NCBI GenBank assembly: GCA_009780415.1
Contig: WRAC01000029.1
Span: 1 to 35,353 of the forward strand
Direction of reading: 5' to 3'
DNA: 35,353 nt
From: Defluviitaleaceae bacterium
GTDB lineage: Bacteria; Bacillota; Clostridia; Lachnospirales; WRAX01
Positions 18,534 to 23,124 of this stretch are shown one piece after another. The notes beneath the pieces are model-generated. The model did not search any database. It was not told the origin of the DNA and saw only the letters and a list, made by a program, of their open reading frames with translations. The stretch's first letter is position 1. Each line of letters opens with the position of its first letter. Both the position numbers and the translations under genes were made by a program.

Positions 18534-18534
18534 A

Positions 18535-18603
18535 CGAGGAGTACGAGAGTTGCACTCGCCTACACGGATTTAGAGTCCGCGCGATCCATCCGATCTACCC
18601 CTC
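18535..18603 (-). tRNA. pylT: tRNA-Pyl, amber suppressor (anticodon CUA)
   Basis: The 69-nt minus-strand RNA folds as a typical tRNA-Pyl. It has a 7-bp acceptor (GAGGGGT/ACTCCTC, one G-T pair), a single base between acceptor and D stem, D stem GATC/GATC with a 5-nt D-loop lacking the GG pair, and a 6-bp anticodon stem CGCGGA/TCCGTG around CTCTAAA (CUA). A 3-nt variable loop (TAG) and a T arm GCGAG-TGCAACT-CTCGT without the usual TTC motif complete it. Discriminator G, as in known tRNA-Pyl. CCA not encoded. The GGACTCTAAATCCG core is shared with Methanosarcina tRNA-Pyl. These odd traits exclude an ordinary amber suppressor. Confidence 0.97.
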
Positions 18604-18613
18604 AAGATGCCCG

Positions 18614-18725
18614 CCTCTATCGAAACCCGGGGGCTGGGGCGGGCCGCCGCATTCGCGGCGTGTGCGCCGCAGGCGCACAGCGCGGGAACCGCGCGCCCGC
18701 CCCAGCCCCCGGGTTTCGATAGAGG
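18614..18725. repeat. 112-nt perfectly paired four-way-junction (cloverleaf) element
   Basis: Perfect inverted repeat of 31 bp (18614-18644 with 18695-18725) enclosing 50 nt that are fully taken up by three abutting hairpins. These are 18645-18660 (6-bp stem, 4-nt loop), 18661-18679 (8-bp stem, 3-nt loop) and 18680-18694 (6-bp stem, 3-nt loop). No base is left unpaired at the junction. It is far richer in G+C than its surroundings. It fills the gap between the pylSc stop (one base away) and the tRNA-Pyl 5' end (10 nt away), so it must be in their shared transcript. I do not recognise it: a small mobile palindromic element, or an RNA processing, attenuation or stability device, are both possible. 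Confidence 0.9.
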
Positions 18726-18726
18726 C

Positions 18727-19566
18727 TCAATTAATCCTAGCCCCATTTAAATAAGCCGTGCTTCTTCCAAGCCGCCCTACCCCGGAATGCCCGGACACCG
18801 CCATAGCCACACGCTCAATGCCTATCCCAAGCCCAACCCATGTCTCAAAGACACCCCACGCGGCGTCAAGCGCGTGCGGGCCGGTTGCACCGGACGCAAG
18901 CTCCGTGCCTTGGCGTATAATATCAAGTGTTTCGCCGTAAACATCGGATGTTTCGGCGATTATTTCTGTCCCTTCAACGCCAGCGGCAGACATCGCCAAG
19001 GATGCCAGCTCACGGAGGCGGTTTTGCTGCTCGCCCTGTTTAACCGACGCGTATTCCACAAGGTTTAGCATTATAAACTCGTTCAAATGCCCCGCACCGC
19101 GCTGTTCTTTACGGAAGCACGTTCCGATTTCGTAAATCCTCACGGGTTTGTTCAGCGCTTTATGTAAATCGCGCATCAGCGTATATAAGCCTGGCGCAAG
19201 CATGGGGCGCAGACAGCGCCCGCCATCCAGCCAAAAAACCTGCTTCCGAAGCGGATGGCTTTCCGTTATAGACATCTTATCCAGACATTGCGCTGTAATT
19301 ATATGAGGCGTGGACACCTCCGCGAAACCCATTTCACCAAGCCATGATTCAAGGCGTTCCGCAACCAGCGCAACGGTTGATTTTTCGCCATGATAAAGCG
19401 CTTTGGCAAGTAACTCGCGGTTTTTTTTAACCAATTCCGCAGAAAGCCTGCGATATGCCGCATCACGGGCTTCGGGCGTTTCAAAACCACTCTCCGGCTC
19501 AGTCCCGGCGTAATTTAATTCAACTAGGCGTTGTTTTTGCGCTGAGGTAAAGTAAACACTATGCAT
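18727..19566 (-). CDS. pylSc: Pyrrolysyl-tRNA synthetase catalytic subunit PylSc
   Basis: Charges tRNA-Pyl with pyrrolysine. The 279-residue protein is a class II synthetase core. Motif 2 is FRKEQRGAGHLNEFIMLN (151-168), where Asn168 matches the Pyl-binding Asn346 of Methanosarcina PylRS. Tyr210 in SDVYGETLDI matches the active-site Tyr384. Motif 3 is GLGIGIERVAM (246-256). HPLRKQVFWLDGGRCLRPMLAP is also family-typical. The start chosen is the ATG at 19566 (MHSVYFTSAQ) with GGAG at good spacing; the frame opens 57 nt further upstream but that would cross the promoter. It is split from the N-terminal domain, as in Desulfitobacterium-type bacteria, and is divergent from the mtb-pylDBC run. Confidence 0.97.
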   Translation of the reverse strand: MHSVYFTSAQKQRLVELNYAGTEPESGFETPEARDAAYRRLSAELVKKNRELLAKALYHGEKSTVALVAERLESWLGEMGFAEVSTPHIITAQCLDKMSITESHPLRKQVFWLDGGRCLRPMLAPGLYTLMRDLHKALNKPVRIYEIGTCFRKEQRGAGHLNEFIMLNLVEYASVKQGEQQNRLRELASLAMSAAGVEGTEIIAETSDVYGETLDIIRQGTELASGATGPHALDAAWGVFETWVGLGIGIERVAMAVSGHSGVGRLGRSTAYLNGARIN

Positions 19567-19590
19567 CAATCTCACTCCGTATATTATTGT

Positions 19591-19619
19591 ATTATAGGGC
19601 AATACGAGAAATAAAACAA
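19591..19619 (-). promoter_or_regulatory. Predicted sigma-A promoter for pylSc-pylT-pylSn
   Basis: On the minus strand TTGTTT (19619-19614), a 17-bp spacer, and consensus TATAAT (19596-19591), 24 nt before the pylSc ATG. Confidence 0.65.
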
Positions 19620-19623
19620 CCAC

Positions 19624-21083: not shown

Positions 21084-21731
21084 ATGGACAAACAAACCAT
21101 CTATAAATCCGCCGCCGACTCCATTCTGACCGCAAATGAGGAACTAGCCGTAAAAGTCTTCAGCGACGCCAAATCCGCCGGTTTCGACCTCCTTGATCTC
21201 CTCGGCAGCGGCTACGGCGCGGGGATACAGGAACTGGGCGAGCTGTTCGGCAAAGGGCGCGTGTTCCTGCCCGAAGTCATGATGGCAGCCGAAACCATGC
21301 GCAAAGCCAGCGAACTGATCGAAGCTGAGCTGCCTCCCGGAACAGCGGCTAAAAAGGCAACAATAGTAATCGGAACCGTTGCCGGGGACGTACACGACAT
21401 AGGCAAGGGCATCATCTGCGCCCTTTTAAAATCAAACGGCTACATGGTGCACGACATAGGACGCGAAGTGCCCGCCCAAGTATTCATAGACAAAGCCGAG
21501 GAAGTTAACGCAGACTACATCGGCTCAAGCGCACTCCTTACCACCACTATGCCCGAACAGAAAAAAATCGAGGAACTTCTTACAAAACAGGGTTTGCGTT
21601 CTAAATACAAAACCTTGGTAGGCGGCGCCCCCGTCACCAAACGCTGGGCGCAAAAAATCGGCGCGGACGCATATTGCGAAAACGCTTCCGAATTATTGGC
21701 ACAGCTTAATGAGTGGCAGGAGGTTAGATAA
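21084..21731 (+). CDS. mtbC: Dimethylamine corrinoid protein MtbC-like
   Basis: 215-residue B12-binding methyl carrier. The N-terminal helical cap domain (residues 1-88, with GIQELGELFGKGRVFLPEVMMAAETM) is followed by a Rossmann-like cobalamin domain. This holds the lower-ligand motif DxHxxG as GDVHDIGKG (Asp102, His104, Gly107), GSSALLTTTM and VGGAPVTKRWAQKIGADAY. It takes a methyl group from MtbB onto Co(I) and gives it to the MtbA-like protein. The assignment to dimethylamine rather than other methylamines rests on mtbB being the next gene. SD GAGGGGTG. It ends in TAA at 21731, one base before the mtbB TTG start, so the two are tightly coupled. Confidence 0.93.
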   Translation: MDKQTIYKSAADSILTANEELAVKVFSDAKSAGFDLLDLLGSGYGAGIQELGELFGKGRVFLPEVMMAAETMRKASELIEAELPPGTAAKKATIVIGTVAGDVHDIGKGIICALLKSNGYMVHDIGREVPAQVFIDKAEEVNADYIGSSALLTTTMPEQKKIEELLTKQGLRSKYKTLVGGAPVTKRWAQKIGADAYCENASELLAQLNEWQEVR

Positions 21732-21732
21732 T

Positions 21733-23124
21733 TTGGATAAAATCCTAACCCGCATGGGCGACGGTTCCCTCATCGAAATGACCTTTGGCGAGGTAATGGA
21801 CGACATACGCGCCGGTGCCCGTGACGCGGCTGAACGCGCCGATGTCCCGTTTTTATCCGAAGCCGAGATGAAGCATATCTTTGAAATCGTAACAACGCCG
21901 GGCAACGCTGTGGGCGTTAGGCTGGGCGACGAAATCGTCTCGACAAGCGATTCCGGCTCCGAGAAACTCAGCGCTTATTGCATGATACCCATTGAAAAAA
22001 GCGTACAGGCTCTGATACACGAGAGGGTACTTGGCGGCGATTCCGTGGACATCGGTTTTGCCGACTACAACTATAAAACCGTAAAAGGCGTAGCGGAGCG
22101 CGAAGCCAACGTTCTGCGCAACGCCGTGGAACGCGCCGTAATGCCCATCTTTTACGGGGCAATGACAAACTTAGGGTTCTACACCTATCCCGACGGCCCC
22201 GTGCCGAACTGGGCGGAGCTTCTGCCCCAGGGCAAAATCGCCGAGGCGTTGAAAGCGCAGGAGGACGCGGCCCGGCACGCCGTCAGGGATATCGTCTACG
22301 TCGCCGAACGCATGTACGAAGCCGGGGCGGACGGTTTTAACCTGGACACCTCCGGCGCGGCGGGAGACGCGGACTTTTTGGCGGCGCTCCGCGCCTGTGA
22401 GGAGATCACAAAGCGTTTCCCCGGTATGGGCGTGGAAGTCGGCATGGCTGGCGAATTCGTGCTGGGTATGCACGGCAAAGTCGAGTATAACGGCACAAGG
22501 CTGGCGGGCTTATACCCCCACGAGCAGGTCAAATTGGTTGAGCAGGCCGGAGCGTCTATTTTCGGCGCTGTGGTAAATACCAACTGCAACGAGAGCTTCG
22601 CGTGGAACATCGCCCGGGTCTGCACGTTTATCAAGCCCTGCGTTGATGCGGCAACTATCCCCGTACACGCAAACGTTGGCATGGGAGTGGGCGGCATACC
22701 CATGTGTCAGACCTTGCCCCATGACGTGGTGTGCAAGGCCGATAAAATCCTGGTTGAAATTTGCAAAATAGACGGTTACTAGCTGGGTGTAGGGGATCCT
22801 TTCGGGATGGAAGCGGCTCACGCCTTGGCCGCGGGAATGGGCGGCATACGGACTGCCGGAGATCTGGTTTTACGTATGCAGCTTCTTCGCAAGATGAAGC
22901 TTGATGACGCCAAAAAATTCGTCGCGGAGAAACTGGGCGTTACCTTACAGGAGCTGGCCGACATCGTAACCATGACAGACGTGCGCGCCAATCTCGGCAT
23001 AGGCGTGCAGCAGCCGTTTAACGGCGAAACCGCCGGTATGGCGGCAAAAATGAAGATATCGGAGTTGCTGGGCATTAAAATAAACTCTGTTGAACGATTC
23101 AAGGAACGGGCAGGGATAATTTGA
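21733..23124 (+). CDS. mtbB: Dimethylamine:corrinoid methyltransferase MtbB, with in-frame UAG (pyrrolysine 350)
   Basis: Transfers a methyl group from dimethylamine to MtbC. The reading frame runs through one TAG at 22780-22782 and ends in TGA at 23122-23124; read as pyrrolysine it gives 463 residues, the family length (Methanosarcina MtbB is about 467 with Pyl356). Conserved blocks lie on both sides of the amber codon: RMGDG and MTFGEVMDDIRAGA at the start, FYGAMTNLGFYTYPDGP, GMAGEFVLGMHGK, ANVGMGVGGIPM, then IDGY-Pyl-LGVGDPFGM, AAGMGGIRTAGDLVLRMQ and LLGIKINSVERF. The TTG start is preferred because AGGAGG (21718-21723) precedes it by 9 nt; the ATG at 21709 lies upstream of that SD and inside mtbC. 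cobW starts within its stop (TTGA). Confidence 0.97.
22780..22782 (+). other. Recoded amber codon: pyrrolysine insertion site
   Basis: UAG within the active-site motif DGY-O-LGVGDP. Protein conservation continues in the same frame for a further 114 codons. The complete decoding set (pylT, pylSc, pylSn) and biosynthesis set (pylB, pylC, pylD) are in the same window. A downstream ATG at 22807 could falsely be annotated as a separate gene start. Confidence 0.96.

Follow-up and report, generated by a model that had tools for sequence, protein, structure and literature searches.

A dispersed DNA palindrome with private, mirrored outer arms in the genome of a Defluviitaleaceae bacterium

The gap between pylSc and pylT in the window (the whole 35,353-nt stretch of DNA analysed here, from a Defluviitaleaceae bacterium) is occupied by a dispersed DNA palindrome that is present in four copies at unrelated loci of the genome. 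New here is that the outer ends of the palindrome are private to each copy and yet exactly mirrored, a pattern suggesting that the hairpin takes up copies of adjacent DNA into its stem. The preferred reading, with a probability of about 0.6, is that of a non-coding dispersed palindrome, rather than a device of pyl regulation, whose outer stem was copied from one target flank by fold-back template switching.

Architecture of the element and its place in the pyl locus

The element spans positions 18613-18726 (114 nt, 77% G+C, no strand assigned) and consists of a perfect 32-bp stem with three hairpins at its tip. The left arm of the stem (18613-18644) comprises an outer part, GCCTCTA (18613-18619), that is unlike those of the other three copies, and an inner part, TCGAAACCCGGGGGCTGGGGCGGGC (18620-18644). 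The right arm (18695-18726) contains the reverse complement of the inner part (18695-18719), followed by TAGAGGC (18720-18726), which complements the outer left arm perfectly and is likewise private to this copy. Hairpin 1 (18645-18660) has 6 bp and an ATTC loop, hairpin 2 (18661-18679) has 8 bp and a GCA loop, and hairpin 3 (18680-18694) has 6 bp and a GAA loop. The fold far exceeds chance, both as RNA (-115.7 kcal/mol, z = -13.5, equalled by none of 200 shuffles) and as DNA (-75.1 kcal/mol, z = -14.8).

The calculated fold confirms the main points of the initial annotation, namely perfect pairing, hairpins of 6, 8 and 6 bp, the absence of unpaired junction bases and only 10 free loop bases. 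The stem had been given as 31 bp within an element of 112 nt, which misses the outermost pair. The gap between the two pyl genes is indeed filled, but the spacings first reported, one base to the pylSc stop and 10 nt to the tRNA, do not hold; since the stem is one base pair longer, the element adjoins the pylSc stop codon (18727-18729) directly and lies 8 nt from tRNA-Pyl.

Both neighbouring genes are on the minus strand. The pylSc gene (18727-19623), which encodes the catalytic domain of pyrrolysyl-tRNA synthetase, is intact to its natural C-terminus, and pylT (18534-18604) encodes tRNA-Pyl with anticodon CUA. No pylSc was found in 294 relatives. The extreme stability of the fold, and the way it fills the space between neighbouring pyl genes of the same direction, would suit a functional RNA of the operon, such as an attenuator, an insulator or a processing signal. 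This explanation is nevertheless very improbable. The other copies have ftsY, a MatE gene and a methyltransferase gene as neighbours; the G-U intermediates that selection at the RNA level would allow are absent; no U-tract, the mark of a terminator or attenuator, follows the stem on either strand; and an Rfam search of the window left the element unmatched, finding only two tRNAs and PYLIS_2. The earlier suggestions that the element insulates tRNA maturation, or that it sets the ratio of synthetase to tRNA by attenuation, are not supported, since the other copies are unconnected with pyl and the U-tract is missing. A pyl-specific role is therefore unlikely. The PYLIS_2 match (22780-22879) lies in an mtbB-like frame (21709-23124) that contains an in-frame TAG at codon 358 (22780-22782).

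A simple consensus scan showed no sigma-70-like promoter between pylSc and pylT, and on that basis pylT is probably transcribed through the element. At this locus the element probably acts as a passive transcribed stem, which is perhaps cut by RNase III and may incidentally affect how pylT is expressed or processed.

Four copies with a constant core and private outer arms

In addition to the window copy (contig C29), the genome carries three further copies with identities of 99%, 95% and 88%. One (C45:4501-4619) separates a gene with both acetyltransferase and sigma-70-like domains from a MatE gene and falls within the apparent frame of the MatE gene. A second, in reversed orientation (C35:25438-25560), starts within the stop codon of ftsY, and a third (C1:99178-99299) has a Big_5-domain gene on one side and a putative methyltransferase gene on the other. 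A structural-model search of the genome found no copy beyond these four at E <= 10, and no stray half-arms were present within 3 mismatches. In 1.03 Mb of the genome, perfect inverted repeats with arms of at least 24 bp and a gap of at most 130 nt numbered four, and all are copies of the element; 41% of the genome was scanned as stretches, with the remainder covered by search tools only. The family is known from four copies in one draft genome. Of the explanations offered initially, insertion of a small mobile palindrome into the operon is supported by these unrelated locations. The initial annotation had also held that many near-identical copies elsewhere would remove a pyl-specific role; just three were found, yet they suffice to make such a role unlikely.

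The C45 copy lies in frame at the 5' end of the MatE transporter gene (L002:1480-2979) and, judged from the reading frame, appears to be translated, adding about 38 Arg/Pro/Gly-rich residues to the predicted N-terminus. The MatE orthologue of a relative (G004) has neither these residues nor the element; its region is too diverged and rearranged for comparison at the nucleotide level, and no pre-insertion (empty) site was found. Palindromes assemble poorly and the genome is a draft of 85 contigs, so that an artefact of assembly or amplification has to be considered. Such an artefact is barely credible, as each of the four copies lies in a different contig and has outer arms of its own, and as gene order runs on without a break on either side and the adjacent genes are intact.

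The core of the element, made up of the three hairpins and the adjoining 25 bp of stem, is nearly constant among the four copies. The inner stem is identical in three copies and carries four paired changes in the fourth, and the three hairpin stems are invariant in all. Two other copies have GTAA and GTAC, respectively, as the loop of hairpin 3. In hairpin 2, three copies have the spacer GCA and the C1 copy has its reverse complement, TGC, a single case with a chance probability of about 1 in 64. Wherever stem pairs vary, both sides have changed (10 of 10 pairs, with no one-sided or G-U pair), a result as high as which was reached in none of 500 shuffles.

The outer arms (GCCTCTA, GGACCCCGC, GCTGACCCCCT and GCTGTCCCATA; 7, 9, 11 and 11 bp) differ in each copy, and each is mirrored perfectly on the opposite side. 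This private pairing totals 38 bp, with a chance probability of about 4^-38. Because three of the inner stems are identical, ordinary divergence over an equal time is an unlikely source of such different outer arms, and the simplest reading of the sequences is that the outer arms were gained separately in each copy, at or after insertion. The outer arms are partly alike (21 of 42 pairwise identities, versus 10.5 expected; P = 0.0026), which suggests a preference for C-rich targets or some shared ancestry; a reading in which the arms are copied needs one or the other. In the C35 copy, the natural stop codon of ftsY lies inside the left outer arm, and the alignment of FtsY to solved structures extends to residue 306 of 308. 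The simplest reading of this locus is therefore that the left arm came first and that the right arm was copied from it.

Possible origin of the outer stem

The perfect arms, the always double-sided changes and the inverted spacer of hairpin 2 together point to template switching at the DNA level. Template switching is reported to produce perfect stems in a single event and double-sided changes (PMC8794818), to homogenise the arms of inverted repeats and to invert spacers (PMC8604942). Perfect arms with double-sided changes are present in the element, and spacer inversion is represented by the one 3-nt case. In the proposed mechanism, the nascent strand, having copied the element, would fold back on itself during or after insertion, and its paired 3' end would act as a primer for copying one flank of the target. 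The copied flank would thereby turn into the outer stem, so that a short piece of the target is duplicated in inverted orientation. Template switching of this same kind would transfer each new mutation to the opposite arm, so that the arms stay identical, and would also invert the hairpin spacers. For the first move of the core, a transposase acting in trans and replication-based copying of a single-stranded hairpin are candidates.

Loss of SbcCD would favour the survival of such a palindrome. In E. coli, SbcCD, of which SbcD is a part, cuts DNA hairpins. The complex and a palindrome are reportedly the subject of one published study (PMC3315005). SbcD is absent from this genome, in which SbcC has only a weak, short match, and is present in 153 of 192 good-quality genomes of the order; its absence may allow the palindrome to persist. 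SbcD loss was, however, rejected as a requirement for abundant palindromes: a relative (G103) has SbcD yet many more palindromes, so the loss is not needed for persistence.

The outer arms could also be older than the insertions. If the core had entered existing short palindromes, such as terminator hairpins, the halves of each target would now form the outer stem, which would account for private, perfectly mirrored arms without any copying. Palindromic repeats are indeed insertion targets of some other elements, and the C35 site minus the core would be a hairpin closed by TTCG. This route is improbable, however, since it needs perfect targets of 18, 22, 26 and 26 bp, which would have to be loopless because no target loop bases remain, and the 1.03 Mb scanned holds only 11, 1 and 1 such palindromes of at least 18, 22 and 26 bp, respectively. 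Moreover, one insertion site is within the 5' end of a coding sequence, and a U-tract follows the stem in none of the four copies.

An ordinary miniature element of the MITE type, moved by a transposase in trans and with the stem as its terminal inverted repeat, would likewise be small, non-coding, fully palindromic and dispersed, and the same genome contains a MITE-like family of 164 bp whose terminal repeats covary. It is also unlikely that this describes the element. Its ends are the most variable part and its interior is constant, whereas an end-reading transposase would need the opposite; the flanks of the four copies show no direct repeat that would indicate a target-site duplication; and the genome has no Y1/RAYT gene, in a search that covered Y1 transposases only. 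Fold-back copying from one flank is preferred for the outer stem. Beyond it, a more tentative and rather doubtful proposal is that the element represents a class of mobile DNA hairpins inserting by self-primed fold-back synthesis, with an inverted copy of the flank in place of the direct target-site duplication. If so, every insertion would have a private, perfectly paired outer stem, and no end-recognising transposase would be needed.

Comparison with known elements and significance

REP and REPIN sequences are small, non-coding bacterial palindromes with hairpin or clover folds, which resemble the element in being dispersed in the chromosome, mostly at gene boundaries (PMC3733652, PMC3116915). 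The element differs from them in its single, much longer perfect stem, its constant interior with variable ends and its number of only four copies. The GTAG or CGTC tag that marks the base of REP palindromes is absent from all four copies, and a search of the genome for RAYT (Y1_Tnp, PF01797) gave no match, while the control search was positive in five known genomes.

Bacterial MITEs, including the Rickettsia palindromic elements, are of similar size (about 110-150 bp) and palindromic (PMC10969869). The element shares with MITEs a short, non-coding, dispersed, inverted-repeat structure; conserved terminal inverted repeats are lacking, as the outer 7-11 bp differ in all copies, and a longer sequence related to the core was not found in the genome. 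The C45 copy, in frame within a coding sequence, recalls the Rickettsia palindromic elements (PMC10969869), whereas the other three copies overlap coding sequence either not at all or only at a stop codon. The mitochondrial double-hairpin elements of Allomyces, for which no flanking duplication is reported, and the hairpin elements (RHEs) of sponges are also mobile and without coding capacity; they are organellar, and copy-specific mirrored outer stems are not known from their descriptions (PMC2800124, PMC7218506). The coding palindromes of Nematomorpha mitochondrial DNA have nearly always perfect arms, with template switching proposed both to make and to keep them, but they arise in place and form no dispersed family with a common core (PMC6649704).

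Other palindromes were observed in this genome and its relatives. G103, of the same order, contains about 119 perfect palindromes per Mb (57 in 480 kb; loci L027-L032, L095, L096 and L120-L135), and two of its contigs begin at one. Their arms are 24-53 bp, the loops mostly at most 4 nt, and nearly all differ in sequence. The sampled part of the present genome has 3.9 per Mb, every one a copy of the element. At L028:1750-1910 of G103, three perfect hairpins in tandem, abutting or overlapping by a few bases, recall the three hairpins of the element. Two Y1 transposase matches with equal scores occur in G103 (C15:41073-41429 and C26:17538-17894), each with one in-frame TAG. The second dispersed family of this genome, the MITE-like sequences of about 164 bp, has a conserved centre (L021:11950-12113, L023:339-502, L051:18541-18729, L047:2548-2677, L017:7891-8012 and L069:14202-14346), and two members carry different extra hairpins at one shared internal spot. 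An inverted repeat in G191 (L036:4867-5033) has ends similar to this family.

No copy of the element was found in a DNA search of 96 genomes of relatives, in the phages and plasmids searched, in the viral contigs searched, or with two exact patterns against a species-level collection of 84,980 genomes. A search with a structural model, the kind of check proposed in the initial annotation, covered 392 genomes from the order and 391 from the class and yielded no relatives. The matches that did arise were rejected: that in G024 (L007) is unremarkable sequence with no inverted repeat, those of the structural model in G103 and G191 are unrelated palindromes, and that in a viral contig (L016) arose by chance and lacks the structure of the element.

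Compensatory double changes in a stem are commonly regarded as proof of a functional RNA. The element displays the same covariation in a dispersed DNA palindrome, probably through the copying of one arm from the other, which advises caution in inferring RNA function from covariation. Inverted copying of the target into the outer stems, if it occurs, would leave an insertion footprint that differs from the direct duplications made by transposases.
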